Shown here one piece after another: positions 49,013-64,000 of a stretch of DNA of 64,000 nucleotides. The notes below the pieces were generated by a model. That model searched no databases. It was not told where the DNA came from and worked only from the letters and a program-made list of their open reading frames with translations. Source of the DNA: Alphaproteobacteria bacterium (GTDB lineage: Bacteria > Pseudomonadota > Alphaproteobacteria > UBA8366 > Aestuariispiraceae). The position numbers and the translations under genes are program-made. Each line of letters begins with the position of its first letter. Within the stretch, counting starts at the first letter, position 1. The stretch is taken from NCBI GenBank assembly GCA_030065235.1, contig JASJDC010000011.1:62001-126000 (forward strand), given 5' to 3'.

Positions 49013-50350
49013 CTAATCGGCGCTGGAAACAGCCGCCGTCGCACGGCCCGATCGCCCTATGCCAAGATAGGAGAATCCAGCGCGACTGACCGCCGCCGGA
49101 TCAAAGAGATTGCGCAGATCAACGATAAGCGGATTCGCCATGAGTGTCTTGATCTGCGCGAGATCAAGCTCAGCGAATTCGGCCCATTCCGTCACCAAAA
49201 CCAAGGCCGACGCGCCGTCTAAGGCGGCATGGGCGTCGGCGCAAAAGACCGCGCCGTTGATCAGCGATTTGGCGTGCTCCATGCCTTGCGGGTCATAGGC
49301 GCGGACATGCGCCCCTTTCCGAATCAAGGACGCGACAACATCGATGGACGGGCTTTCCCGCATGTCATCTGTATCGGGCTTGAAGGTGAGCCCCAGCACC
49401 GCCACGGTCTTGCCGGTGAGGTCTCCGCCCAAAGCAGCTTCGACCCGGTCGGCCATCGCGCCTTTTCGTTCATGGTTCTTGGCGATGACCGCTTCTACAA
49501 TCCGGGTCGGTGCGCCGACCGATTCAGCTGTCTTGGCCAAGGCAAGCGTGTCCTTTGGGAAGCAGGACCCGCCATAGCCCGGCCCGGCGCGGAGGAACTT
49601 GGAACCGATCCGGTCGTCCAGGCCCAAGCCGAGGGCGACATCCTCGACATCCCCGCCGACTTTCTCGCACAAATCCGCCATTTCGTTGATGAAGGTGACT
49701 TTGGTCGCCAGGAAGGCGTTGGTGGCGTATTTGACGATCTCCGCGGACTCGACCCCGGTCATCAGGATCGGCACGCCCTTGTCCGACAGCGGCGCGTACA
49801 GTTCGCGCATCACCGATCGGGCGCGCTCGGAGTCAGCGCCGACCACGACCCGGTCCGGCTTCATGAAATCCTCAATCGCCGCGCCCTCACGCAGAAATTC
49901 GGGATTGGAGACGACATCCCATTCGGCGCGCGGCAGAGCCTTGGTCGCGATCGCCATCACCGCGCGCGCCGTCCCCACCGGGACGGTCGATTTGTCGATA
50001 ATCACGGTATAGCCGTCGATGGCGCGCGCGATCTGGTCCGCCGCCGTATAGACATGAGATAGATCCGCGTGTCCGTCTTCCGGCCGGGGCGGCGTGCCGA
50101 CGGCGATGAAGACGCAATCGCGACCCGACACCGCCGCCGCGAGATCCGTCGAAAAAGACAGCCGTCCCGCCTCGACGTTGCGCGCCACAAGCTCTTCGAG
50201 ACCGGGCTCGTAGATCGGGATTTCGCCGCCGCGCAGCCGCGCGATCTTATTCGCGTCTATATCCACACAGGCGACGTCATGGCCGAACTCGGCGAAACAG
50301 GCGCCCGAGACGAGCCCGACATAGCCGGTTCCGATCATTGCGATCCGCAT
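49013..50350 (-). CDS. ugd: UDP-glucose 6-dehydrogenase
   Basis: The 445-residue enzyme has the NAD loop MIGTGYVGLVSGACFAEFGH and the catalytic cysteine in GPGYGGSCFPKDTLAL (about residue 260). The UDP-binding end is LGLTFKPDTDDMRESPSIDV. It oxidises UDP-glucose to UDP-glucuronate. It lies 14 bp after galU, which supplies its substrate, and before the phosphomannomutase gene. Confidence 0.95.
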   Translation of the reverse strand: MRIAMIGTGYVGLVSGACFAEFGHDVACVDIDANKIARLRGGEIPIYEPGLEELVARNVEAGRLSFSTDLAAAVSGRDCVFIAVGTPPRPEDGHADLSHVYTAADQIARAIDGYTVIIDKSTVPVGTARAVMAIATKALPRAEWDVVSNPEFLREGAAIEDFMKPDRVVVGADSERARSVMRELYAPLSDKGVPILMTGVESAEIVKYATNAFLATKVTFINEMADLCEKVGGDVEDVALGLGLDDRIGSKFLRAGPGYGGSCFPKDTLALAKTAESVGAPTRIVEAVIAKNHERKGAMADRVEAALGGDLTGKTVAVLGLTFKPDTDDMRESPSIDVVASLIRKGAHVRAYDPQGMEHAKSLINGAVFCADAHAALDGASALVLVTEWAEFAELDLAQIKTLMANPLIVDLRNLFDPAAVSRAGFSYLGIGRSGRATAAVSSAD

Positions 50351-50364
50351 ACGAACTTCCTCAA

Positions 50365-51264
50365 TTAGACCGGCGGCGCGCGCTTGGCGCCGCTCTCTTC
50401 CGATTGTTTCAGAAACCCCAGAACCGCCGCGCGATACTCGTCATGCTGCAAGGCCATCGCGATATTGGCCTCCAACCAGCCCAGTGTTGTGCCGCAATCG
50501 AGACGCCGGCCGCTGAAACGCAACCCGTGAACCGGTGTGCGGCCAATCAGCGCCGCAATCGCGTCGGTAAGCTGGATTTCACCGCCGGCGCCGGCCTGCT
50601 GCTCCTCGAGGATGGCGAAGACGTCCGGCGGCAGCAGATAATGGGCGATCACTGCGAGCGTGGAGGGTGCGGCCTCCGGCGCGGGTTTTTCAATCAATCC
50701 CCGGATCGGAACCAAGGCGCCGTCCGGCGAGTCGGTATCGATCACGCCATAGCGGCCAACCTCGGCGCGCGGCACATCCATCGCGGCGACGACCGCGCCG
50801 CCGGTTCGCGCATGCGCCTCGATCAATTGCCGCGCCGAACTGGTCTCTCCGACAATCAGATCGTCCGGCGAAACAACGAGGAACGGACCGTCTGCGACCG
50901 CATGACGAGCGCACCAGACAGCATGCCCCAAACCAAGCGGCTCCATCTGGCGGACATACAGAACCCGGCCCGGCCGCAACAGGAAGGCGCGGATTGCAGC
51001 GCGCGCCTCCTCCTTGCCTCGCATTTCGAGCGAACGGTCCAATTCGTAGGCGATATCGAAATAGTCCTCCAGCGCGCCTTTGTTTCGGCCGGTGACCAGA
51101 ACAATACGCTCAACCCCGGCCTCAACCGCGTCCGTCACCGCATAATGGATCAGCGGCCGATCGACGACGGGCAACATCTCTTTTGGAATCGATTTCGTCG
51201 CCGGCAAAACGCGCGTCCCGAATCCTGCGACCGGGAAGACCGCGCTCTTGACCGATGCCGTCAT
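50365..51264 (-). CDS. galU: UTP-glucose-1-phosphate uridylyltransferase
   Basis: The 299-residue nucleotidyltransferase has FPVAGFGTRVLPATKSIPKEMLPVVDRPLI at the start, with the signature glycine-rich loop and the catalytic lysine. LGLGHAVWCARHAVADGPFLVVSPDD lies near the middle. It makes UDP-glucose from UTP and glucose-1-phosphate. It is the first gene of galU-ugd-phosphomannomutase. Confidence 0.95.
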   Translation of the reverse strand: MTASVKSAVFPVAGFGTRVLPATKSIPKEMLPVVDRPLIHYAVTDAVEAGVERIVLVTGRNKGALEDYFDIAYELDRSLEMRGKEEARAAIRAFLLRPGRVLYVRQMEPLGLGHAVWCARHAVADGPFLVVSPDDLIVGETSSARQLIEAHARTGGAVVAAMDVPRAEVGRYGVIDTDSPDGALVPIRGLIEKPAPEAAPSTLAVIAHYLLPPDVFAILEEQQAGAGGEIQLTDAIAALIGRTPVHGLRFSGRRLDCGTTLGWLEANIAMALQHDEYRAAVLGFLKQSEESGAKRAPPV

Positions 51265-51425
51265 GTCGTCGCTCGCCTGAAGGGTTTGGGAGAGGCTGCG
51301 CGGGCCGTGAACAGGCGGTCCTCAAAGCCGGGAAGGCCATCGTCTGCCATATTCCCGCTGCAAAGCGCAAGCGCGCGCCGATGAAGCCTGACAAAATCGC
51401 CGTCGCAGTCGCCGGCGGCCCGGCG

Positions 51426-51773
51426 TTACAGAGCCGCGATCCTATCGCGCAATTCGTCGGTGAACCCGACACTGACGACGCCGCCCGCCTCGACCAGCGG
51501 ACGCTTGATCAAAGACAGGTTCTCGAGGATCAGGGCCACGGCTTTGTCCGGGTCGATATCGGTCTTCGCTTGCTCCGGCAACTTCCGCCAGGTGGTTCCG
51601 CGCTTGTTGATCACGGTTTCCCAGCCAAGCGCGTCGATCCAGCCGCGCACCACGCGTTCGTCCAACGACACCGTCTTCAAATCATGGAACACCGCAGTCT
51701 CGCCATTTTCCGCCAGCCATTTGAGCGCGGCCCTGCAGCTATCGCAGTTCCGCAATCCGTAGAGTTCGATCAT
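51426..51773 (-). CDS. ArsC/Spx family thioredoxin-fold protein (YffB-like)
   Basis: The 115-residue protein has the CXXC motif NCDSC (Cys10, Cys13), then TTWRKLPEQAK and LIKRPLVEAGG, as in the YffB/ArsC/Spx family. It may act as a glutathione-dependent thiol reductase rather than a real arsenate reductase. The start is ATG 51773, because the longer frame to 51875 has no family match. Confidence 0.88.
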   Translation of the reverse strand: MIELYGLRNCDSCRAALKWLAENGETAVFHDLKTVSLDERVVRGWIDALGWETVINKRGTTWRKLPEQAKTDIDPDKAVALILENLSLIKRPLVEAGGVVSVGFTDELRDRIAAL

Positions 51774-51983
51774 AACGCGCCGCCATCCGCCTCTAGATTT
51801 CTCACGATAACACCAAAGTGTAGGATGACCGGAAGGCCAATACCAGTTCGCCAGATTGAAGGACGACGGCGCCAAGCCACGCTCTTGATATCAACAGGAT
51901 GACGGGCCCCGACGTAGGTTGCGACACGGACGGCTCGTTGCAATAGTGTGTGCACATGGAAACGTCTCTAGGGATCGTCCCGC

Positions 51984-53972
51984 GTGGCTCCGAACGATTT
52001 GACAACGCGACACGCTCACGACCTGCAGCGCCTCCGTCGGGAGAATGAGGCCCTTCGCGCGACGAATGATAAACAACGCGCACGGCTGCATGCGTTTTCC
52101 GACTTTTTGCAGAAGCTGTCGTGGGAAACAGACGCCGAGCACCGCATTCGGCGCGTTTCGGCCTACGTGGATACTGGGCCGCCAAGCGGGCAGGACGACC
52201 GGATCGGAAAGACCCGGTTGCAACTCGCTCAAGAGGGCGTCTACACGCTGCAGAGCGCGGCGCCATTGCAGGCGGCGATGGAACGTCACGAACCGGTGAT
52301 CGATCACATTTTGGAACAGGTCGAGCCAGCCGGGCGCTTCAGCTATTTCAGCCTGTCGGGAACGCCGATGTTCGACCTTTCCGGCGCGTTTACCGGATAT
52401 TGTGGGGTCGCGCACAATGTGACCGACAGCATTCGCCGGCAACGCGAGTCAGAGCGAAACGAGGAGCGGTTTCGGGATTTCGCAGAGGTCGGCACGCATT
52501 GGTTCTGGGAGACCGACAAAGACGGCATTTTCACCATGATCTCTGAGGGATTCGAGATGCTGACCGGCGTCGATTTGAAGGATCAGATCGGCAAGAGCCG
52601 GGCGGATGTGGCTGCGATCGACCAAGAAGCCGGCGTTTATATCAGGGCCATAAACGAAGCCGTGGAGCGGCGAGAAACCTTCAATGACCTGCCGTTGAAA
52701 CGCAAGAACCAGGCCGGCGAAGACAGCTATCTGCGGATCAGCGGCAAACCGGTCTATGGCCCAGACGGGGCCTTTGAAGGCTATCGCGGCGTCGGTCGCG
52801 ACGAGACGGCGAATCATCTGAACCGGCTCGCGCTGGAAGAAAGCGAAAATAGATATCGCGCCTTGATCGAGAACTCCGTCCAAGGCGTCGTCGTGCTGCG
52901 CGACGGTCGGGTTCATTTCGCCAATCAAGCCTTTTGCGACATTGTCGGCTTGTCTGATGCGGAAGACCTCGTCGGCGTCGACGCTTTCGCCTACGTGCAT
53001 CCGGAAGACCGGGATCGTCTGCGCGACTATCAAAGCAAACGGCTGAGCGGAAAAGCGGCGCCGGCGCACTACGAAACACGCTACCTCCGGTCTGACGGGT
53101 CCGTCGTCTGGGCGGATCAACGGGCCGTCGTGATCAATTTCGCCGGACAATTCGCGACTCTGGTCACCGTGATCGATGTGACCGGCCGGCATGAACAAGA
53201 GCAGGCGTTGCTTCGGTCGAAGGTCGAAGCGGAAGCGGCGAATCGGTCGAAGTCTCAGTTCCTGGCGCATATGAGCCACGAGCTTCGAACGCCGCTGAAC
53301 GCGATCATCGGCTTCTCGGAAATCATGCATTCGGAACTCCTTGGCCCGGTCGAGTCAGAGACCTATCGCGGCTATATCGGGGATATCCGACAGAGCGCCG
53401 GACATCTGCTCGATTTGCTGAGCGATATTCTCGACCTGTCGCGTATCGAGGCGGGCCGATTGAATCTGGAGCCGCAGCCCCACCCATTGGAGGATCTGGT
53501 TGGGCCTGCGATTCGTCGCACCAAGGCGAACGCCGACGGTCGCAAGATCGTTTGGACGCCGCCGGATGAACTGTCATCTGATCTCTTCGTGGATCGTCGG
53601 GCCGTTCAGCAGATGCTGGACAATCTATTGACCAACGCTGTCAAATTCACTGATCCATCCGCAGGAGTCATTGAGGTTTCTGCAAAACTCACAGAAGACG
53701 GCTGTACGCTTTGCGTATCGGACAATGGCGTCGGGGTGCGCAAAAGCGATCTGAAACGGATCATCAACCCCTTTGAACAGGTCCGCGCAGACGGCCTGTC
53801 TCGGAATACTCGTGAAGGCGTCGGCCTGGGTCTCGCCATCATCAACGCCTTGGCCGAGGCGCATGGCGCGCGTTTCTGGCTAGAGAGCGTCTTCGGCGAA
53901 GGCTTCTCCGCCTACATCCATTTCCCCGCCCAAACAGGCGGCGCGGACGCCGCGGCCCCGTACAAAGCTTAG
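51984..53972 (+). CDS. PAS-domain sensor histidine kinase
   Basis: The 662-residue kinase starts at GTG 51984. It begins with a short coiled coil and about three PAS domains spanning roughly 35-410. The dimerisation box FLAHMSHELRTPLNAIIGF has the phosphorylated His at 432. The ATPase domain has DNLLTNAVKF, DNGVGV and GVGLGLAI. It has no membrane segment, so it senses a cytosolic signal. No response regulator is nearby. PAS-type kinases of this shape are often found near cell-cycle or stress regulators in alphaproteobacteria. Confidence 0.92.
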   Translation: MAPNDLTTRHAHDLQRLRRENEALRATNDKQRARLHAFSDFLQKLSWETDAEHRIRRVSAYVDTGPPSGQDDRIGKTRLQLAQEGVYTLQSAAPLQAAMERHEPVIDHILEQVEPAGRFSYFSLSGTPMFDLSGAFTGYCGVAHNVTDSIRRQRESERNEERFRDFAEVGTHWFWETDKDGIFTMISEGFEMLTGVDLKDQIGKSRADVAAIDQEAGVYIRAINEAVERRETFNDLPLKRKNQAGEDSYLRISGKPVYGPDGAFEGYRGVGRDETANHLNRLALEESENRYRALIENSVQGVVVLRDGRVHFANQAFCDIVGLSDAEDLVGVDAFAYVHPEDRDRLRDYQSKRLSGKAAPAHYETRYLRSDGSVVWADQRAVVINFAGQFATLVTVIDVTGRHEQEQALLRSKVEAEAANRSKSQFLAHMSHELRTPLNAIIGFSEIMHSELLGPVESETYRGYIGDIRQSAGHLLDLLSDILDLSRIEAGRLNLEPQPHPLEDLVGPAIRRTKANADGRKIVWTPPDELSSDLFVDRRAVQQMLDNLLTNAVKFTDPSAGVIEVSAKLTEDGCTLCVSDNGVGVRKSDLKRIINPFEQVRADGLSRNTREGVGLGLAIINALAEAHGARFWLESVFGEGFSAYIHFPAQTGGADAAAPYKA

Positions 53973-53976
53973 CGCT

Positions 53977-54906
53977 TCACTCGGCGGCTTGCGGCAAAGC
54001 GGCGGCGTTGGCGTAGTCGCGGATGTCGAAGGCGAGATCCGTTAGATCCGTGCGCAGGCCATCGAAAGACGCGCTTCTCTCTAAAGTGCGCTCATTCATG
54101 TAGATCGACCGGTTCAACTCGATCTGCAGACTGTGCCGACCATGCCTCGGATCCGAATAGGCCTGGACGATATAGGCGCCCTTGTAGGGATCATTGACGC
54201 GCACCGTATAGCCCTTAGCCGTCAGACGGTCGCGCACGAAAGCCGTGAAAGCCGGGTCGCAGGATCGGCCGTCGCGGTCGCCCAACACGATATCGGCGCG
54301 GTTGCCGCCAGTGCGCCGCGACACCAGCGGGCTGGAGCCGGCCGGCATGGAATGACAATTGATGTGCCAGACCGCGCCGAATGCAGAGACGGACTCGTGC
54401 AAGAGCCCTTCCAGCGCCGTGTGATAGGGGCGCCAATAGCCTTCGATCCGCGCCATGACTTCCGAGACGGACAGGCGGCGCTGATACATCATCCGGTCCG
54501 GCGGAAAGCTGCGCCAGATCAGGCCGTGGCCAAGCCGGGTCTTGTCACTCGGCCGCAGGACGCCGGGCCAGGCCCCGTCCAACAGCCGGCTGTCCAGATC
54601 CTCCAAGGATCGGTTCGGGTCGATATAGCTGCGCGGGAACTGGGCCGCCAAGAGCGACGCGCCCGCCGCCGTGACGCCGGCATAGAGCGCGTCGACATGG
54701 CTGTCTTGAACGCGAGCGAGGTCCTCGCGGCCCACAACCGTGCCGAAATCCAGCGGAAAATGCGCGCCGCTATGCGGGGAATCGAACACGATCGGCGCGG
54801 CCTGGCCCAGACTGCGACGCAGGTCGAGGACGCCAGGCTGATAGTCGCCCGTTGCGCCGTAAGCCGCACCCTCTGCGGCGTCGCAAGCTCCGTCCTCTGT
54901 CCGCAT
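53977..54906 (-). CDS. N-formylglutamate amidohydrolase family protein
   Basis: The 309-residue protein has the family motifs IVFDSPHSGAHFPLDF, VDALYAG, IDPNRSLEDLD, WHINCHSMP, the Asp-rich ADIVLGDRDGRSCDPAF and SLQIELNRSIYMNE. It hydrolyses N-formylglutamate to glutamate and formate in histidine breakdown or a similar substrate. No hut genes are nearby. I start at ATG 54906, but ATG 54945 is possible. The frame extends to 55158 with no family match there. It converges on the histidine kinase, with 4 bp between. Confidence 0.88.
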   Translation of the reverse strand: MRTEDGACDAAEGAAYGATGDYQPGVLDLRRSLGQAAPIVFDSPHSGAHFPLDFGTVVGREDLARVQDSHVDALYAGVTAAGASLLAAQFPRSYIDPNRSLEDLDSRLLDGAWPGVLRPSDKTRLGHGLIWRSFPPDRMMYQRRLSVSEVMARIEGYWRPYHTALEGLLHESVSAFGAVWHINCHSMPAGSSPLVSRRTGGNRADIVLGDRDGRSCDPAFTAFVRDRLTAKGYTVRVNDPYKGAYIVQAYSDPRHGRHSLQIELNRSIYMNERTLERSASFDGLRTDLTDLAFDIRDYANAAALPQAAE

Positions 54907-55157
54907 CGCTTCAGCTGTCTTTCCGCGTCTGTCCGCCGCCGCCATCCCGCGAAGGCGCGGCTCGGTTGAATGTAGGGGCGCGGCGCCGCCACGGCAAACG
55001 GCGGAGAACGTCATTTGCGACTGATTTGCATATTCCTGCGGGCCGCCCCAACCCCACCGTTCTTTGGCATGGACCGGCGAGGAGGCGCGAACTATGGTCT
55101 GGCCGCACGGAGCTGCACCTCGCAACGCTGTCCCTCTCAGAATGGAGCATTCCCACA

Positions 55158-55625
55158 ATGACCGGCCAAATTGATGAAAGACTAGCGAAAATGGGCGTCA
55201 AACTCGCCGCCGCACCTAAGCCGGCCGCCGCCTATGTGCCCTATGTGAAGACCGGCAATTTGGTCTTCATCTCCGGCCAGGTGCCATTCGTAGACGGTGA
55301 ATTGACCTTCCAGGGCAAGGTCGGCGTCGATTTCACGCTCGAAGAAGCGCAAGAATGTGCACGAATTTGCGCGCTGAATATCCTCTCGGTCGCCAAGGAC
55401 GCCTGCGACGGCGACCTCGACCGCATCACCCGCATCGTCAAACTCGGCGGATTTGTGAACTGCAAGGACGATTTCGAGCAGCATCCCGCCGTGATCAACG
55501 GCGCCAGCAACTTCATGACCGACGTGTTCGGCGAGAAGGGTCAGCATTCGCGCTTCGCGGTCGGCGCCGGCTCGCTGCCTTTCAATGTCGCAGTCGAAAT
55601 CGAAGCGGTGATCGAAATCGCCTAG
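55158..55625 (+). CDS. RidA family protein
   Basis: The 155-residue protein has GNLVFISGQVPFVDG, FQGKVGVDFTLEEAQECARICALNILS, RITRIVKLGGFVNC and the final SRFAVGAGSLPFNVAVEIEAV, where the conserved Arg binds the imine substrate. RidA deaminates reactive enamines or imines. The start at ATG 55158 is consistent with family length. It diverges from the amidohydrolase gene. Confidence 0.93.
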   Translation: MTGQIDERLAKMGVKLAAAPKPAAAYVPYVKTGNLVFISGQVPFVDGELTFQGKVGVDFTLEEAQECARICALNILSVAKDACDGDLDRITRIVKLGGFVNCKDDFEQHPAVINGASNFMTDVFGEKGQHSRFAVGAGSLPFNVAVEIEAVIEIA

Positions 55626-55637
55626 ACTGCCTCCACG

Positions 55638-57227
55638 CTAAAGCGCCTTCAGGATCGCGCGCGCGGCGTTTCGGCCCGGCAGGCCGGAGACGCCGCCACC
55701 GGGATGCGCGCCTGAGCCGCAGAGATACAGGCCTTTGATCGGCATCGCGTGGCGTGCATAGCCGGGCGCCGGACGCATCGAGAAGATCTGATCGAGATGG
55801 AGCGCGCCGTGGAAGATGTCGCCGCCCGGCATGCCCAAGGCGGTCTCGATGTCTTCTGGGGAATTGATCTGTCGCGCGATCACCGCGTCCCGGAAGTTTG
55901 GCGCGTAGTCGGTCACCGTCTCGATGATCGCATCCGCCGCCGCTTCCCGCTCCGCCCGCCAACTTCGTCCGTCAGGCAGATGACGGCGGAAATGCTGGCA
56001 GAACAGGCTCATCACATGGCGACCCGGCGGCGCCAGCGTGTCGTCGAGAATCGACGGCATGCACATCGAGATCACCGGCCGGCGCGACCAGCCCTCGGCG
56101 CGGGCGTCGTCATAGGCCGCCTGGATGTAGGGCAAGGACGGGCAGATATCGATTGTGCCGTTCAGATGGGTCAGATCATCCGGATCGCCGCGCCATGAGC
56201 TGAAACGCGGCGCTTCGGACAGAGCGACATTCATCCGGAAGGTCGCGCTTTCGCTGCGCCATCCTTTCATGCGGCGCGCAAAGTCGGCCGGGGTCAGCGC
56301 CGGATCGACCATTTTGTTGAACAACAGCTTGGGGCTGACATTCGCCGCCGCCGTGCGCGCCACAATCCGGGTTCCGTCTTCGAGAACCACGCCCGACACG
56401 CCACGGCGCGCATCAGCGATGACTTCCACCACAGCCGCCTCGGTCCTGATCTCAACGCCCGCCTCGCGGCAAGCGGACGCCAAGGCCTGGGTGATGGCGC
56501 CCATGCCGCCCTTCGCGTGGCCCCAGGCCCCGGTGCGGCCGTTCACCTGGCCGAACGCGTGATGCAAGAGCACATAGGCTGAGCCTGGATGATACGGCCC
56601 GACGAAATTGCCGATCACCCCTTCGAAACCGAACAGACCTTTGATCAGGTCGCTTTCGAACCAACGGTCGAGATAGTCGCCGATCGACATCGTCATCAAA
56701 TCGGCCAGATCGGTCTGCGCCTGGGTCGAGAGACGCGCCAGCGATCCGGCCGTCAGGACGGCGCGCGCCAGATCCGCCAGGCCACCGCCGAAATTGGGCG
56801 GCGGGCTTTCGGCGGCGCCGCGCAAGGCCTCGGCGACGACGGCCAGCCTGTCGTCGAACGATTCATAGGCCTCGGCGTCCGCCTTTGAGAAGCGCGCAAT
56901 TTCGGCCCGCGCCCGCGCCTTGTCGCGCGGCAAAGACAAATGGTCGCCCTCCAGGACCGAAAAACTGCCGCCGGAGCGGTCCTGGATCACCAAACCATGG
57001 CGCGTGAGGTCCAGATCGCGAATGACATGCGGGCTCAACAGGCTGACCAGATAGGAGAAGACCGAATTCCGGAAACCCGGGTGGAACTCCTCGGTGATCG
57101 CGGCCCCGCCCACGATGGCGCGCCGTTCCAGGACGATTGTCTTCAGCCCGCCGCGCGCCAGATAAGCGGCGCAGGTGAGGCCATTATGACCGCCGCCGAT
57201 CACCGCGACATCATAGCTCTCCGTCAT
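55638..57227 (-). CDS. NAD(P)/FAD-dependent oxidoreductase, PYROXD2/CrtI-like
   Basis: The 529-residue flavoprotein starts with VAVIGGGHNGLTCAAYLARGGLKTIVLERRAIVGGAA, a full FAD-binding loop. It carries WGHAKGGMGAITQALASACREAGVEI in the middle. The C-terminal second flavin site is LYLCGSGAHPGGGVSGLPGRNAA. It resembles PYROXD2 proteins, relatives of phytoene desaturase. There are no carotenoid synthesis genes next to it, so a carotenoid role is unlikely. It diverges from the acyltransferase gene and converges on ridA. Confidence 0.9.
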   Translation of the reverse strand: MTESYDVAVIGGGHNGLTCAAYLARGGLKTIVLERRAIVGGAAITEEFHPGFRNSVFSYLVSLLSPHVIRDLDLTRHGLVIQDRSGGSFSVLEGDHLSLPRDKARARAEIARFSKADAEAYESFDDRLAVVAEALRGAAESPPPNFGGGLADLARAVLTAGSLARLSTQAQTDLADLMTMSIGDYLDRWFESDLIKGLFGFEGVIGNFVGPYHPGSAYVLLHHAFGQVNGRTGAWGHAKGGMGAITQALASACREAGVEIRTEAAVVEVIADARRGVSGVVLEDGTRIVARTAAANVSPKLLFNKMVDPALTPADFARRMKGWRSESATFRMNVALSEAPRFSSWRGDPDDLTHLNGTIDICPSLPYIQAAYDDARAEGWSRRPVISMCMPSILDDTLAPPGRHVMSLFCQHFRRHLPDGRSWRAEREAAADAIIETVTDYAPNFRDAVIARQINSPEDIETALGMPGGDIFHGALHLDQIFSMRPAPGYARHAMPIKGLYLCGSGAHPGGGVSGLPGRNAARAILKAL

Positions 57228-57384
57228 CCGCTCCCTCCCTGGCGCCGGCCTCCGCGCCGCCGGTCCGGAAGAAACCGTTGAGCGGCGGCGCGCGTATCTT
57301 AACTATGACGCGGCGCGGGATTTGGAAATCACGCGCAGACCGCGCCAGTCCGATCGAGCCCCACCCAGCTTTGGAAGGGACGAC

Positions 57385-58590
57385 ATGCCAGACGGCGAAA
57401 GCCTGTTGCAGATCGAAACCGTGTCGTCGATTGGCGCCGTATCGGCCGAGGATTGGGACGGGTGCGCGGGCGGAAGTAATCCGTTTCTGAGCCATGCTTT
57501 CCTTTACGCGTTGGAGGAGAGCCGCTCGGTTTGCCGCGAAGAAGGATGGCTGCCTCAGCATCTCGTACTAAAAGACGCGGCCGGCGCGCTGCTCGGCGCG
57601 GCGCCGCTTTATCTCAAGGGTCACAGCCAGGGCGAGTACATCTTCGACTATTCCTGGGCGCACGCCTATGAACGCGCCGGCGGGCGCTACTATCCGAAGC
57701 TGCTCTCCGCCATTCCCTTCACCCCGGTGACGGGCCCGCGGATCCTGACCCGCAGCGGCGAGACGGCGGAGACCGACGCCGCGCTGCGCGGCGCTCTGAT
57801 CAATGGATTGGTCGAAGTCGCGCGTCAGCTTCAGGTCTCATCGATGCATGTAAACTTCCCGAGCGAGGCGGATGCGCGGGCGTTTGACGAGGCCGGCTTC
57901 CTGTTGCGCCACGGCCATCAATATCATTGGTCGAACGGCGCCGATCCGGAGTCGGGCGCAGAAGCGGCGCAGGCGAAGTTCGAAAGCTTTGACGATTTCC
58001 TGGGCGTGTTGAGCAGCCGAAAGCGCAAGAACATTCGCAAAGAGCGCCGCAAGGTCTCCGAAGCCGGTTTGCGCCTGGAACGGCTGACCGGCGACGCCTT
58101 GCGGTCGGAGCATTGGGACGCGTTCTACGCCTTCTACAAAGAGACCTATGACCGCAAGTGGGGGCACCCCTATCTGACCCGCGCTTTCTTTGAGATCGCC
58201 CAAGCGACGCTGCGCGACAAGATCCTCTTGGTTCTGGCCTATGAAGGGGATCGGCCGGTCGCCGGCGCGCTGAACCTGATCGGCGAGACGGCGCTCTATG
58301 GCCGGAATTGGGGATCGGACGGGCGCTATCCGTTTCTGCATTTCGAGGCTTGCTACTACCAGGCCATCGATTTCGCCATCGAACGCGGTCTCGCGACCGT
58401 CGAGGCGGGCACCCAGGGCGAGCACAAGATCCAGCGCGGCTATCGCCCGGTCCGAACCTTCTCCGCCCACCATATCGCCGATCCCGGCTTTCGCTCGGCG
58501 GTCGAGCAATTCCTGATCAGTGAACGCCGCGAAGTCGCCCATATCATGGACTATCTCGACCAGCATTCGCCCTATCGGAAAGAGGCCTAG
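57385..58590 (+). CDS. GNAT-like acyltransferase, DUF482/COG3146
   Basis: This 401-residue protein matches the COG3146 family ([68 protein letters not shown]). It has two GNAT-like halves, as in FemAB-type aminoacyl transferases. The family has been called a peptidogalycan-synthesis protein, but the true reaction is unknown. ATG 57385 is chosen over a longer frame from 57322. Confidence 0.88.
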
Positions 58591-58664
58591 GGCCTTCCAC
58601 CGCTTGGTTTTCAGCTTTCGACCGAGCCATTGCGTTCAGCGGGCGGGCGCCTATATTCCGCCGC

Positions 58665-59831
58665 ATGCCGCAAGACTTGAACAGCATGGGCTTCGCCAAA
58701 GCGCCGGAGGACACCCGCATCGTTGTCGCGATGTCGGGCGGCGTGGACTCGTCAGTCACCGCCGCCTTGCTGAAAGAGCAGGGCTACGACGTGGTCGGCG
58801 TCACATTGCAGCTCTACGATCACGGCCAAGCCGTCGGCCGCAAGGGGGCCTGCTGCGCCGGCCAGGACATCCATGACGCCCGCAACGTCGCCGCCGAATT
58901 GGGCTTCCCCCACTATGTGCTGGATTACGAAAGCCGGTTCCGCGAGAGCGTGATCGAGGATTTCGTCGAGTCCTATATCAACGGCGAGACGCCGATCCCC
59001 TGTGTGCGTTGTAACCAGACGGTGAAGTTTCGCGACCTGCTGGGCGCCGCCCGCGATCTGGGCGCGGAAGCGCTGGCGACCGGTCACTATGTCCAGCGCG
59101 CGGTCGTCGACGGTCGCGCCAGGCTGGCGCCGGCGGTCGATCGCAGCAAGGATCAAAGCTATTTCCTGTTCGCGACCACCCAAGAGCAACTCGGCTATTT
59201 GCGCTTTCCCTTGGGCGGCCTGACCAAGGCGGAAACCCGCGCCCATGCCGAGCGTTTCGCCTTGCCGGTCGCGGCCAAACCGGACAGCCAGGATATTTGC
59301 TTCGTGCCGAACGGCTCCTACGCCGCCGTCGTCTCCAAGATCCGGCCCGACGCCGCGGTTCCGGGCGATATCGTGCATCTCGACGGCGCGGTGTTGGGCC
59401 GGCATGACGGGGTCGTCAATTACACGATCGGTCAGCGGCGCGGGTTGGGCGTCGGCGGCCGGCGCGAGGCGCAGGGCCGCGACGGCGAGAGCGAGCCGCT
59501 CTATGTCGTGCGCATCGATCCCGGCCTGAACCGCGTCATTGTCGGCCCGCGCGCGGCGCTCGCGGTGGAGGAGATCACGCTGAACGGGGTCAATTGGCTG
59601 GGCGACGGCAAGCTGACCGAAGGTCCGCGCGATCTCATGGTCAAAATCCGCAACACCATGGCGCCGGTCCCAGCCACGGTCTCGGCCGACGCGTTGGGCG
59701 ATGTGCGTGTCCGGTTCGCAACGCCGGAATTTGGCGTTTCGCCCGGTCAAGCCTGCGTCTTTTATGACGGCGGTCATGTCCTGGGCGGCGGCTGGATCGC
59801 CCGCCAAGCGGACCGCGCTGAGGCCGCCTGA
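58665..59831 (+). CDS. mnmA: tRNA 2-thiouridine(34) synthase
   Basis: The 388-residue enzyme has the ATP pyrophosphatase loop SGGVDSS at 24-30. The catalytic cysteine is in VRCNQTVKF (Cys116) and its partner in SQDICF (Cys212). The N-terminal [14 protein letters not shown] segment is also typical. It adds sulfur to U34 of Lys, Glu and Gln tRNAs. The start may be at ATG 58665 or 58686. A tRNA gene follows 120 bp later. Confidence 0.96.
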
Positions 59832-59873
59832 AACCGGCTTTTTCGCAAGGATAGCGCCACGCCGGCGCCGCCC

Positions 59874-59902
59874 TTGACACGCGCAGGCGCAAAAAATAAA
59901 CA
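59874..59902 (+). promoter_or_regulatory. Promoter of the tRNA gene
   Basis: TTGACA (59874-59879) is followed after 17 bp by TAAACA (59897-59902), about 50 bp before the tRNA. The perfect -35 box fits a strong stable-RNA promoter. Confidence 0.65.
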
Positions 59903-59951
59903 AGCGGCTCTTCGACGCCCGGCACTCAATCAGATCGGCAGGCGCGTCCGG

Positions 59952-60027
59952 GGCGGATTAGCTCAGTGGTTAGAGCAGAGGAATCATAATCCTTGTGTCC
60001 GGGGTTCAAATCCCTGATCCGCCACCA
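59952..60027 (+). tRNA. tRNA with CAT anticodon (Ile2 or elongator Met)
   Basis: A full cloverleaf is visible. The acceptor GGCGGAT pairs with ATCCGCC and the D arm is GCTC...GAGC. The anticodon stem GAGGA/TCCTT surrounds loop ATCATAA, and the T arm CGGGG/CCCTG surrounds TTCAAAT. The discriminator A is followed by an encoded CCA. The anticodon is CAT. It is not the initiator, because the first pair is a normal G-C. The D and anticodon arms look closer to the Ile2 type, which needs lysidine, but elongator Met remains possible. Its last 44 bases before the terminal CA of the CCA end are duplicated downstream. Confidence 0.93.
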
Positions 60028-60066
60028 CTTTTCAATGACGTAGCAGAAACACGACTAGCGGAAAAC

Positions 60067-60087
60067 CGTGTAAAGATCGTGTAAAGA
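60067..60087 (+). promoter_or_regulatory. Paired CGTGTAAAGA motifs, left end of the mini-element
   Basis: CGTGTAAAGA occurs at 60067-60076 and 60078-60087, 11 bp apart. The same 10-mer recurs at 60901-60910, followed 11-12 bp on by a weaker CCGTGTATAA. Direct pairs near both att repeats resemble arm-type sites for a tyrosine recombinase or its accessory factor. Confidence 0.45.
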
Positions 60088-60259
60088 AGCGATAGCGTAG
60101 TGTGTCACCCTACACGATGCTTCACGTCACTATTTGAACAAAGCATCCCCATTCGGCCTCGCCAATAAAGTCTGCTTATGACCCAACTGGAACACTAAGC
60201 GTTGACTGTCAGAACATTGTTCAATTACGTCGAAGCGCTGTTTCTTGCGCTGGGGAATT

Positions 60260-60793
60260 ATGAGTAAGGGCTGGAAAGTCTACTGGGCGGTCGTTGCCAT
60301 CACGGTTGCGAATTACTTGACTATGGTTCTGTGGTCTCTCCCACTGGTAAGTGAGATGGCTGATGGAGGGGCGCCTTTTGACATGCGCCCGGGAGGCTAT
60401 TCCTTCGAAGAGGCTCGTGTGTTCCTTTCCGCAATGAGCAGCGAGGGTCGTGAGTTCTATCTCAACACGCAACAGCTCTTGGACTTCTTTTACCCCACGT
60501 TATTCGCAATTACTGTGTCAATCGCCTTGGTCCATTTGACGCCACGGTATTGGGGATGGATTTTGGCGTTGGTAGCGATTGCGGCAGGGGCCTTTGATCA
60601 CCTTGAGAATGGCGCCGTGGCTATCATGCTAGGCGTTACGCCAGACTTGGTCACCGAGGCCATGGTCTCCTCCGCAAGTAATTGGACAGTGGCAAAGTCG
60701 ATCTCTACCACTTTCGTATCGATAGCCCTGCTGGTGGTCCTTTGCACAAAGGGCATTGCCTGGTTCAAATCCCGAAGAGCCAAAGGCGCATAG
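60260..60793 (+). CDS. Hypothetical four-helix membrane protein, cargo of the mini-element
   Basis: The 177-residue protein has about four membrane helices: VYWAVVAITVANYLTMVLWSLPLV, LLDFFYPTLFAITVSIALVHL, YWGWILALVAIAAGAFDHLENGAVAIMLG and TFVSIALLVVLCTKGIAWF. A soluble loop with GGYSFEEARVFLSAMSSEGREFYL lies between the first and second. I do not know a function, though similar small membrane proteins occur in proteobacteria. ATG 60260 is preferred to 60245. It is the only gene in the element and has AT-richer codons. Confidence 0.75.
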   Translation: MSKGWKVYWAVVAITVANYLTMVLWSLPLVSEMADGGAPFDMRPGGYSFEEARVFLSAMSSEGREFYLNTQQLLDFFYPTLFAITVSIALVHLTPRYWGWILALVAIAAGAFDHLENGAVAIMLGVTPDLVTEAMVSSASNWTVAKSISTTFVSIALLVVLCTKGIAWFKSRRAKGA

Positions 60794-60854
60794 ACCAATC
60801 CCTGCGGATAGCCCGCAGTTGGCGCATAGCAGACAAAAAGCTCTCTGCGCTTCT

Positions 60855-60879
60855 AAAGTGTCGCGATTCACGACACTTT
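60855..60879 (+). terminator. Stem-loop after the membrane-protein gene
   Basis: AAAGTGTCG (60855-60863) pairs with CGACACTTT (60871-60879) around a 7-base loop, 62 bp after the stop. The run of three T bases is short, so termination is plausible but not certain. Confidence 0.6.
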
Positions 60880-60900
60880 GGTCGGGCAAGAAAACAGTTT

Positions 60901-60910
60901 CGTGTAAAGA
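60901..60910 (+). promoter_or_regulatory. CGTGTAAAGA motif, right end of the mini-element
   Basis: This 10-mer matches the two at 60067-60087 exactly and lies 65 bp inside the right repeat. A related CCGTGTATAA follows at 60912-60921, so the right end also has a direct pair. Confidence 0.45.
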
Positions 60911-60975
60911 ACCGTGTATAATCCCGACACATCTCTGCAACTTAACTGGTAGCTAAACAACTTTCAGTGCATACA

Positions 60976-61019
60976 AATCATAATCCTTGTGTCCGGGGTT
61001 CAAATCCCTGATCCGCCAC
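60976..61019 (+). repeat. att-like copy of the tRNA 3' half
   Basis: The sequence is an exact copy of 59982-60025, from the anticodon loop to the first C of the CCA end. The 5' half of a tRNA is missing here, so it is not a functional gene. Confidence 0.92.
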
Positions 61020-61161
61020 TATCTTTTTTTCGAAACAGAAGCTTAGGTCATTCGAGATTTGTCGAAGCACAAAGTTGTTCATTAACAGATCGTGTGAGGC
61101 GTCTAAAGTATTGGGATCACCGATGCTTTGGGTCGCACCAGCGCTTTGCATCGGTAATGGT

Positions 61162-61776
61162 TCATTCTTGCACTAGACCGCTTTTCACCGCAAATGGGTC
61201 CCAACTTGGGTCCTTATGCCATGCGTACTCAGTTTCGTCGGCCATCCACTCGGCCTGTTCATCCCCAAATAAATGCGCCGCCGCAGCGAGAGACATGTCC
61301 ATCCCGGCGGAGACACCCGAAGATGTAAAGAACTTGCCATCTTGTACCCATCGCGCTTTCTTCACCCAATGTACCTGCGGGCCCAGATGGACGGTGTCAC
61401 GAAAGTCGATTTTGTTGGTGGTAGCGCGACGTCCGTCAAGTCGCCCGGTCATGGCGAGTAGAATACTGCCTGTACAAACAGTCATCACAAGGTCAGCATT
61501 GTCCGACACCTCTTCGAGCCAGGACACTGAATCCGGGTTATTCCCAACTTCAATCGCGCTGTCGCCGCCCGGAACCAAGAGGAGATCGAATGAGCGCGCC
61601 TCGAAAATGGATTTGTCTGGTAAAATTCGTTGGCCATGCCGCGTAACAACTGGGTCGAGCGACGCGGCGACAAAGGTTAGGCTAATTCTGTCGAAGAAGC
61701 CGCCAAGCAGTTCCACAGGCCCGAATAGATCGAGGGTTTGAACGCCGGGAAAGATAAAAACTCCAAGGGACTTCAT
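61162..61776 (-). CDS. DJ-1/PfpI family protein (isonitrile hydratase-like)
   Basis: The 204-residue protein has IFPGVQTLDLFGPVELLGGF at the start, FDLLLVPGGDSAIEVG, and the nucleophile elbow TVCTGSILLAMTGRLDGRRAT with its reactive cysteine. SSGVSAGMDMSLAAAAHLFG follows. This is the isonitrile-hydratase/ThiJ branch. The exact substrate is unknown. It diverges from a GlxA-type regulator that contains a related domain, and the regulator may control it. Confidence 0.87.
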   Translation of the reverse strand: MKSLGVFIFPGVQTLDLFGPVELLGGFFDRISLTFVAASLDPVVTRHGQRILPDKSIFEARSFDLLLVPGGDSAIEVGNNPDSVSWLEEVSDNADLVMTVCTGSILLAMTGRLDGRRATTNKIDFRDTVHLGPQVHWVKKARWVQDGKFFTSSGVSAGMDMSLAAAAHLFGDEQAEWMADETEYAWHKDPSWDPFAVKSGLVQE

Positions 61777-61853
61777 TGCCGTATCCTTTGCATTGAGGCG
61801 ACACTATCAAGAATAGGCAGTTTATCCTTACGGTTTAGGGTGGAAATGACAAA

Positions 61854-62837
61854 ATGACCGCGTTTTCAGACAAACGTCTTGTCGTATTCGTCGTCTTTCC
61901 CAATATCTCTCTGCTTGATCTGGCTGGTCCTCTGCAGGTTTTTTCGTGGGCGAGAAGCAGTGGAAGCGATCCGCTCGCTTATGAGACGGAAGTCGTCTCA
62001 CGAAATGGCGGCCCGGTGCCGACCGATACGTTGATAAAAGTGGATACCTTGCTGATCAGTCAAATGAGGGATCGCGCGATAGATACACTTATGATCATCG
62101 GCGGCGATGGCGTCTATGAAGCCGCAAGAGACATTCATTTCGTTGAAGAGGTCGCAGTGCTTTCGCGAATGGCGGATCGCGTTTGTTCCGTCTGTTCCGG
62201 AGCCTATTTACTGGCGGCCACCGGAGCCTTGAACGGGCGTCGTGCGGTGACTCATTGGGAAGACGCCAAAGCGCTAAAAGAGACATTTTCAGATGTTCAG
62301 GTTGAATTGGACCCGATCTATATCCGGGACGATAACATTTGGACATCGGCAGGCGTGACTTCCGGAATCGATATGTCTCTTGCAATTCTCGCAGAGGATA
62401 TTGGTCAGAAGGCCGCACTCGAACGGGCCAGAGCATTAGTCACTTATATGATCCGGCCCGGCGGGCAGTCTCAATTCAGCCCTGCCCTCGAACGTCAGAG
62501 CAACGACCGGGAAGGACGTTTCGACGTTCTTCATGCTTGGATTGCAGACAACATGCAAAATGGGCTGCTTGTTGAAGATCTAGCAGACCATGAAAATATG
62601 ACCGTCCGAACTTTTCATCGATTGTATTCATCAACCATGGGTCGCACTCCTGCCAAAGCTGTTGAATTAATTCGACTTGAAAGGGTGCGAGAATTGTTGG
62701 AGTCTACGACGCTTACGATCCAGGCCATAGCGCGTCAGTGTGGATTCAAGGATAGCGAGCGGATGAGGCGTTCGTTCCTAAGGCAGTTCAATGTCTCTCC
62801 CAATGACTATCGAAAGCGTTTCGGCCTTCTACGTTAG
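61854..62837 (+). CDS. GlxA-type transcriptional regulator (DJ-1/PfpI plus AraC HTH)
   Basis: The 327-residue regulator has an N-terminal DJ-1-like domain (VFPNISLLDLAGPLQVFSWA, CSVCSGAYLLAATGALNGRRAVTHWED). A C-terminal AraC double helix-turn-helix covers about 220-325 (HENMTVRTFHRLYSSTMGRTPAKAVELIRLERVRELLESTTLTIQAIARQCGFKDSERMRRSFLRQFNVSPNDYRK). Such proteins sense a small molecule with the first domain. The neighbouring divergent DJ-1 enzyme is the likely target, with 77 bp between starts. Confidence 0.92.
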   Translation: MTAFSDKRLVVFVVFPNISLLDLAGPLQVFSWARSSGSDPLAYETEVVSRNGGPVPTDTLIKVDTLLISQMRDRAIDTLMIIGGDGVYEAARDIHFVEEVAVLSRMADRVCSVCSGAYLLAATGALNGRRAVTHWEDAKALKETFSDVQVELDPIYIRDDNIWTSAGVTSGIDMSLAILAEDIGQKAALERARALVTYMIRPGGQSQFSPALERQSNDREGRFDVLHAWIADNMQNGLLVEDLADHENMTVRTFHRLYSSTMGRTPAKAVELIRLERVRELLESTTLTIQAIARQCGFKDSERMRRSFLRQFNVSPNDYRKRFGLLR

Positions 62838-63068
62838 AGTTGTTCTCAGTGTATCTGGGAGAATTTCGAGTCGCATTGACCTTCGATATCACTAGGCAAG
62901 GGCCGAGCGTTAGTGATGGGTCGGGTAATGTCGCCGAGTTTGGGGCCGCCGATACTATGAAAGACCTGGTGTAACTCTGCGCCCGGCTCTACAGTTGATC
63001 TGTGAGCGGCTCTCGGATGACGGGGTGGAGGGATACGCTCTCGATACAGCTTCAGGGGAACCGCCGGT

Positions 63069-63530
63069 ATGAAGTCATTGATGCTTTTTTGGATCATACT
63101 GTTGTCGCCGGCGACGGCCTTCGCCTTGCCGGCGGAAGATCACTGGACGACGGACCTCGACCCCAAGTACGCCGCCGCTCTGTCCGAGAGCGCGCAGCTT
63201 CTGGAAACAGAGCGGTATTGCGAGGCGCTGCCGATGCTTGAAGAGCTGGCTTCGGCGCTGCCCGCCAATGCGGATGTCTTCAACATGCTCGGATATGTGC
63301 ACCGCAAAATGGATGAATTGGACGTCAGCGCCAAACATTATGAGCGCGCGCTCTACCTCGATCCCAACCATCTTGGCGCACTCGAATATCAAGGCGAACT
63401 CTTCCTTCGACAGGGAAATCTGGACGGCGCTCTGGCGAATCTCAGGAAACTGGAAAAAGTATGCAGCGTCGCGTGTGAAGAGCGAGACCAACTAAAAACG
63501 GCGATCAGCGCTCATCAGACCCGGGATTGA
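63069..63530 (+). CDS. Exported TPR protein
   Basis: The 153-residue protein has a signal peptide (LMLFWIILLSPATAFALP, cleavage near 20) and about three TPR units: AAALSESAQLLETERYCEALPMLEELAS, ADVFNMLGYVHRKMDELDVSAKHYERALYLDPN and LGALEYQGELFLRQGNLDGALANLRKLEK. It is probably a periplasmic scaffold. AGGGGAA precedes the ATG. The upstream 230 bp after the GlxA gene show nothing recognisable. Confidence 0.83.
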   Translation: MKSLMLFWIILLSPATAFALPAEDHWTTDLDPKYAAALSESAQLLETERYCEALPMLEELASALPANADVFNMLGYVHRKMDELDVSAKHYERALYLDPNHLGALEYQGELFLRQGNLDGALANLRKLEKVCSVACEERDQLKTAISAHQTRD

Positions 63531-63712
63531 GTTTTGCCAGCGGATGCGACGAACTTGTCTTATCCGTGGAACAGGCGATGCAACGCGCCAACCCAACGCG
63601 CCGGTCTCGGCACATAGTTGCTCGCCCCGCTCACGGCATTAGACTGGAGCAGGCGCGTGGAGGGTAGACCGTCCACATGTTGGCGCGCCGCAGCGTTGAA
63701 AACGGATAGGCG

Positions 63713-64000
63713 ATGTTCACAAAGCCCCTTGAATTTGGATTTAAGCAGTTTGCTCGCATGCGTCTTTGGCCGGCGGTGCTTATCTGCGCCGCGCTTGGCT
63801 GGAGCGCCGCGGCCTGGGGCCAGACCGCCGAGCCATTGCAGATCCGGTCCGCGCTCGAACAATACAGGGACGCCGGCGCTCTGACGGTTTTGGACGCGCC
63901 GCTCGGCAGCGGCCCCTTCCTCGAGGCCTTCTATCGCCAGCGCGGCTATGCTCCGGCTTGGGACGACCCGGAGGAAGCGCGCGATCTGGCGGCGGCGCTG
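63713..64000 (+). CDS. L,D-transpeptidase (YcbB/LdtD type), N-terminal part
   Basis: Only the first 96 codons are in the window. The frame starts at ATG 63713, with GGATAGG upstream, and has a signal segment LWPAVLICAALGWSAAAWG. The mature start has the scaffold-domain motif FYRQRGYAPAWDDPEEARDLAAAL, seen in YcbB-type enzymes. These form 3-3 crosslinks in peptidoglycan. The catalytic cysteine domain lies beyond the edge, so the call rests on the N-terminal motif alone. Confidence 0.8.
   Translation, partial: MFTKPLEFGFKQFARMRLWPAVLICAALGWSAAAWGQTAEPLQIRSALEQYRDAGALTVLDAPLGSGPFLEAFYRQRGYAPAWDDPEEARDLAAAL

Follow-up and report, generated by a model that had tools for sequence, protein, structure and literature searches.

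How a second copy of the 3' half of a tRNA gene came to lie about 1 kb downstream of that gene, with no integrase beside it, is the question raised by one locus of a draft alphaproteobacterial genome. The locus lies in the 64,000-nucleotide stretch of DNA that was analysed (the window), which is part of a 255-kb contig (C7) in a 4.18-Mb source assembly of 19 contigs. We consider it likely that the 994-bp unit between the copies is a small element integrated at the tRNA gene, with attL and attR ends and no integrase, that is, either a CIME-like element or a decayed tDNA island with one accessory membrane-protein gene.

The 994-bp unit, its cargo and its surroundings

The two repeat copies are identical at 44 of 44 positions and start 994 bp apart, as a preliminary description of the window had reported, and the repeat is not a chance match. 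Extended over the CCA end, the match is 45 of 46 bases, copy 2 having CTA where the tRNA has CCA. The gene (Table 1), which ARAGORN calls tRNA-Met, is possibly tRNA-Ile2 instead. An intact tRNA gene and a displaced 3' fragment thus lie in direct orientation at opposite ends of the unit, an arrangement typical of a tDNA island; together with the deviating GC content described below, this supports the earlier proposal of integration into a tRNA 3' end. One further match to the repeat stretch was found in the source assembly (78%, inside a tRNA-Thr gene), and the element itself is present once. Exact identity of the copies is a plausible sign of recent insertion but, over 44 bp, a weak one.

Table 1. 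Features of the tRNA-bounded unit and its right-hand neighbours, in window positions
Feature	Position	Strand	Remark
tRNA gene, CAT anticodon	59952..60027	+	Found by ARAGORN, as tRNA-Met; 3' half probably now supplied by the element (attL)
Direct repeat copy 1, 44 bp	59982..60025	+	Putative attL core; anticodon arm to 3' end
Left paired inner box, CGTGTAAAGA-T-CGTGTAAAGA	60067..60087	+	42 and 53 bp beyond copy 1; putative arm-type function
Small membrane protein, 177 aa	60260..60793	+	Sole likely gene of the unit; open over 177 codons
Imperfect hairpin, right end of unit	60849..60884	+	Not recognised as an intrinsic terminator
Right paired inner box, TCGTGTAAAGAA-CCGTGTATAA	60900..60921	+	55 bp before copy 2; putative arm-type function
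Direct repeat copy 2, 44 bp	60976..61019	+	Putative attR core; displaced tRNA 3' fragment
DJ-1/PfpI family protein	61162..61776	-	Neighbour outside the 994-bp unit; low GC
DJ-1 plus AraC-type regulator	61854..62837	+	Neighbour outside the unit; low GC

The interior holds a single small membrane-protein gene, as previously proposed. Its product was expected to have four helices; only three hydrophobic stretches pass the cut-off (near residues 7 to 30, 73 to 94 and 142 to 171), and the single-sequence structure model is poor (mean pLDDT, 49). No Pfam, PHROGs or NCBIfam family matched the protein at the limits applied. The hairpin near the right end had been described as a terminator. The stem is present at about the position given in Table 1, with no T run after it, and a terminator scan of positions 59940 to 61160 found no combination of stem and T run.

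Homologues of the 177-aa protein were found in 8 of 384 other genomes of the class, in 1 of 42 others within the order and in 2 of 72,556 plasmid records (Yoonia and Phaeobacter). None was found among 50,697 phage records, and none was confirmed in viral contigs, where the search covered close relatives only. At both plasmid loci, which are alphaproteobacterial (L074, 5278 to 6477; L075, 5251 to 6438), the homologue is divergent from a Crp/Fnr-type gene, which suggests that the two form a regulated pair; no such gene lay beside the homologue at the eight chromosomal loci checked, some of which are ended by contig edges. In one genome (G235; L076, 4429 to 6322), the homologue and the 3' end of another CAT tRNA gene are ~1.3 kb apart, and no flanking direct repeats of 15 bp occur within its 6.5-kb contig. 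Among the nine homologue loci besides the source, six had no direct repeats of at least 15 bp within the stretch examined. The others had one of 19 bp (L075), two of 16 and 15 bp (L077) and one of 15 bp (L080), and ARAGORN found no tRNA gene in these three stretches. The 177-aa gene behaves as a sparse accessory gene.

The unit has a GC content of 50.4%, compared with 63.1% over positions 50000 to 59951, and third-position GC is 62.7% in the cargo gene versus 82.7% in mnmA (58665 to 59831), which lies directly 5' of the CAT tRNA gene. The low-GC stretch extends beyond copy 2 to about position 63000, across the DJ-1/PfpI gene and the DJ-1/AraC regulator: positions 61020 to 62837 are 51.2% GC, the next gene, encoding a TPR protein, is 56.3%, and the sequence then is mostly 60 to 67%. 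Since low GC continues past the second repeat, the 994-bp unit is one portion of a low-GC zone of ~3 kb. The DJ-1/PfpI gene and the divergent DJ-1/AraC regulator (61020 to 63000) may have been horizontally acquired as well; DJ-1 matches were found in 14 of the 43 genomes of the order at an E value of 1e-20, the source genome counted.

A hairpin at 61099 to 61135, outside attR, resembles the one inside the unit over 38 aligned columns, with a score matched by 2 of 300 shuffles. The pair may mark the end of an older, related element or may be a common operator. In addition, GATCGTGT at position 61088 is similar to the left-end box, a similarity matched by 13 of 300 shuffles. These hairpin and box similarities beyond attR are marginal.

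Paired end boxes and the search for an integrase

The end motifs mentioned in the preliminary description could be sharpened to paired boxes, one pair just inside each end of the unit. The window has three copies of CGTGTAAAGA, every one inside the unit, and the whole source genome has six; the remaining three are single, unpaired boxes on other contigs. The double box CGTGTAWAG-N(1-4)-CGTGTAWA has exactly two sites in the 4.18-Mb source genome, one inside each end of the unit, and none in the 42 other genomes of the order (of the 43 genomes in this set, many of them drafts, 21 reach 90% completeness with contamination of 5% or less). It was absent from all 20,000 sequences generated by an order-1 Markov model of the unit, and a stricter left-end pattern was found in 1 of 385 genomes of the class, namely, the source genome. 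The two 200-bp ends of the unit share a 12-bp direct match, which was equalled by 1 of 500 shuffles.

Tyrosine integrases usually have their arm-type sites as direct pairs on either side of the core. Judged by position and pairing alone, the boxes are probable arm-type sites of a tyrosine integrase, and their presence inside both ends means that both ends probably belong to one element. We know of no integrase whose sites match these boxes.

Three viral contigs (L070, L071 and L072) share the left-end double box, which in them lies within intergenic repeats that we read as promoter-like; the sequences of L070 and L072 agree exactly over 10,073 bp, and L071 is related to them. Since these contigs carry the left-end pair with no tRNA, the boxes may have another role, and an operator or promoter role is possible. 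The right-end pattern was found in no viral contig. These contigs initially resembled relatives with a third copy ~1 kb away, and were set aside because the box sits in the intergenic repeat and a tRNA is absent. In both L070 and L072, the intergenic repeat stands at about ten places, and CGTGTAAAG occurs three times, twice in one repeat and once in another.

The absence of an integrase, which had been noted from the window, held up over the whole contig for the tyrosine type. No tyrosine integrase gene was found on the 255-kb contig by PF00589, all seven PF00589 matches of the source genome being on other contigs. An integrase pseudogene next to the unit had also been considered earlier; tblastn of positions 60028 to 64000 with open reading frames (ORFs) from the seven integrase loci of the source genome, from two loci of relatives and with the integrase of genome G013 (see below) gave only short, weak matches (best E value, 0.046) and no recognisable relic. 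The proposal that an integrase with matching sites might reside elsewhere in the genome found no support in the source genome or in the order genomes searched.

A search for further copies of the repeat-bounded element was equally negative in the source genome and in phage and plasmid records. With positions 59952 to 61100 as the query, 21 plasmid records and 5 phage records had matches, all of which were tRNA sized or partial and spanned less than 80% of the query. The exact 44-mer was absent from the viral contigs and present once each in two records of the genome_contigs collection, in which the source genome may be absent. These belong to Curvivirga aplysinae and Hwanghaeella grinnelliae, both of the NCBI family Aestuariispiraceae.

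The same tRNA target in related genomes

A counterpart of the CAT tRNA gene is present in all 14 family genomes, the source included. mnmA lies upstream of it in the source; of the tRNA stretches from 13 relatives, ten have mnmA in that position, and it was undetected in those of G012, G007 and G006. No empty site was seen in this set, in which the source genome is the sole representative of its genus, and the genes past attR were not found beside the tRNA in the relatives' stretches. These stretches were scanned for second copies by exact matches of 15 bp to the 3' half of the tRNA of the genome concerned, with downstream coverage of ~0.1 kb in G005, 3.3 kb in G011, 4.1 kb in G013 and at least 13.8 kb in the ten other relatives. 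Second copies near the tRNA were found in the source genome and in G004; those of G013 were reached by a BLAST match on another contig.

In G004, 1,914 bp separate the tRNA gene from a 24-bp partial copy (96%); this segment has two ORFs without a Pfam match and no integrase. On contig C16 of G013 (L054), a 408-aa tyrosine integrase is followed, after 60 bp, by a 45-bp copy of the 3' half of the tRNA, beyond which lie 1,320 bp with one 348-aa ORF (no Pfam match) and then a second partial copy. C16 would continue the tRNA locus of contig C15 on its distal side, a placement that we infer from sequence matches. One region of ~1 kb farther on is similar to the sequence that follows the tRNA in G009, with ~47% protein identity over the larger part; C16 had no match at the same limit to the flanks of G010 and G012, which belong to the same genus as G013.

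The ends of these segments were also compared. The G004 segment has no shared end motif of at least 8 bp. The ends of the 1,320-bp segment of G013 share a 9-bp match, which was reached by 48 of 500 shuffles, and those of its integrase island share 8-bp matches with no shuffle control behind them (one direct and two inverted, e.g., TGTCGCAA). Taken together, these results show that the CAT tRNA gene is a recurrent target at which short integrase-less segments recur, and that clear paired boxes are found only in the window's unit, not in the G004 or G013 segments.

Comparison with known elements and alternative explanations

The missing integrase had been presented as an oddity. Its absence stands; the unusualness was overstated, since CIMEs are a described class (PMC5704250, PMC7563491, PMC3146451). 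As these reports portray them, CIMEs keep attL and attR, have lost the genes for integration and transfer and move only after accretion (PMC5704250, PMC7563491); in Streptococcus salivarius, classical CIMEs of 1.2 to 13 kb and gene-less microCIMEs of 130 to 220 bp are described (PMC7563491). Like these derivatives of streptococcal ICEs and IMEs, the unit retains att ends and cargo without integrase or transfer genes: attL and attR are recognisable from the repeats and the paired inner boxes, and recombination and conjugation genes are absent, the one likely gene matching no family and PF00589 (tyrosine type) having no match on the contig. Unlike them, it comes from a different phylum, is intermediate in size (~1 kb, one gene) between these two published classes, and directly adjoins its tRNA, whereas in the tandem arrays of S. 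salivarius the CIMEs are reported to lie furthest from the target gene (PMC7563491). An element with matching ends was found neither in the source genome nor in the order genomes, viral contigs, phage records or plasmid records. The unit thus appears to work like a CIME, with descent from an ICE or IME, which is part of the CIME definition, at candidate status only.

The unit also resembles the 15 ssrA islands of Dehalococcoides without an integration module, which were read as possible CIMEs and which, in that account, are likewise bounded by direct repeats of the 3' end of an RNA gene (PMC3146451). The integration module described there has serine recombinases, and the islands form tandem arrays at ssrA (PMC3146451), whereas the unit has a tRNA target, forms one clear unit and carries boxes that suggest a tyrosine integrase.

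With the tDNA islands catalogued by Islander, of which 2,083 of 3,919 are given as anticodon centred and 1,836 as of the T-stem class (PMC4383910), the unit shares the intact tRNA, the displaced 3' fragment and a repeat that reaches into the anticodon arm. Those islands, with size peaks at 13.6 and 39.9 kb, must have an integrase gene inside (PMC4383910), and the interval between the unit's repeats has none. A finder with this demand would pass over the unit.

A close parallel within the family and at the CAT tRNA is the composite in G013, with its integrase-less, one-ORF segment of 1,320 bp between tRNA 3' copies; in contrast to the unit, that segment adjoins an integrase-bearing island, its end motifs differ from the unit's, and its cargo ORF has no Pfam match. 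Phage satellites such as PICIs have their own integrase and genes for packaging or helper interference; the unit has a single likely ORF with no PHROGs match. The unit is well bounded and of a known kind, and stands out by being so small and by having paired boxes at its ends.

If the unit is CIME-like or a decayed tDNA island, a tyrosine integrase now missing from the contig would have integrated a circular form by recombination at the 44-bp core matching the tRNA 3' half, with the crossover probably in the anticodon-loop part of the core. Integration would have restored the tRNA gene with the element's 3' half and displaced the native half to copy 2, and the paired boxes would be the binding sites of the integrating enzyme. 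That the brought and native halves are identical suggests a donor from the same lineage. The integrase may later have been lost or may never have been carried, so that the unit would now be immobile by itself. Excision would then require either a trans-supplied integrase of matching specificity or, in cis, an incoming element that lands in one of the unit's att sites (accretion). The integration history, the function of the boxes, the loss of the integrase rather than its original absence and any residual mobility are all what we infer from these features.

Other origins were weighed against this one. If the tRNA fragment came from an ordinary tandem duplication, gene conversion or mis-assembly, it would not be an att site at all. 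Nothing specific speaks for this beyond the draft state of the assembly, and it is extremely improbable given that the fragment spans the anticodon arm to the 3' end, the usual signature of a tDNA island, with deviating GC between the copies and paired boxes at both inner ends. A composite island is doubtful yet within reason, and is compatible with the preferred explanation: the low-GC DJ-1/AraC segment past attR would be an older element at the same tRNA, to which the 994-bp unit was added in tandem. The reach of the low-GC zone to about 63000 and the likeness of the outer hairpin and GATCGTGT to unit-end features (2 of 300 and 13 of 300 shuffles, respectively) agree with it; these similarities are marginal, however, and neither a third tRNA copy, degenerate ones included, within ~10 kb downstream nor an integrase was found there.

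The unit might instead be genuinely non-autonomous: a satellite, or the tDNA equivalent of a MITE, that still moves in trans with the integrase of a partner having the same arm sites and that has spread as a one-gene cassette. Boxes at both ends, an intact core and an open cargo gene are consistent with this, and the 44-mer in Curvivirga and Hwanghaeella would fit circulation within the lineage. We nevertheless think it unlikely, as the source genome has no second copy, the phage and plasmid matches are tRNA sized or partial, and the paired boxes occur nowhere else in the source genome or the order, the other single boxes being unpaired and on other contigs. Quite unlikely, in our estimation, is a minimal non-autonomous tDNA cassette of ~1 kb with one gene and two complete att ends, moved in trans by partner integrases as a site-specific counterpart of MITEs; such a cassette would be easily overlooked, given that an island finder such as Islander needs an integrase.

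If the CIME-like or decayed-island reading is right, the unit would be a clean and very small att-bounded case, with probable integrase sites at both ends and no integrase. Its mechanism would be as expected from CIMEs and decayed islands, and two further genomes of the family have short integrase-less cargo segments at this tRNA target.
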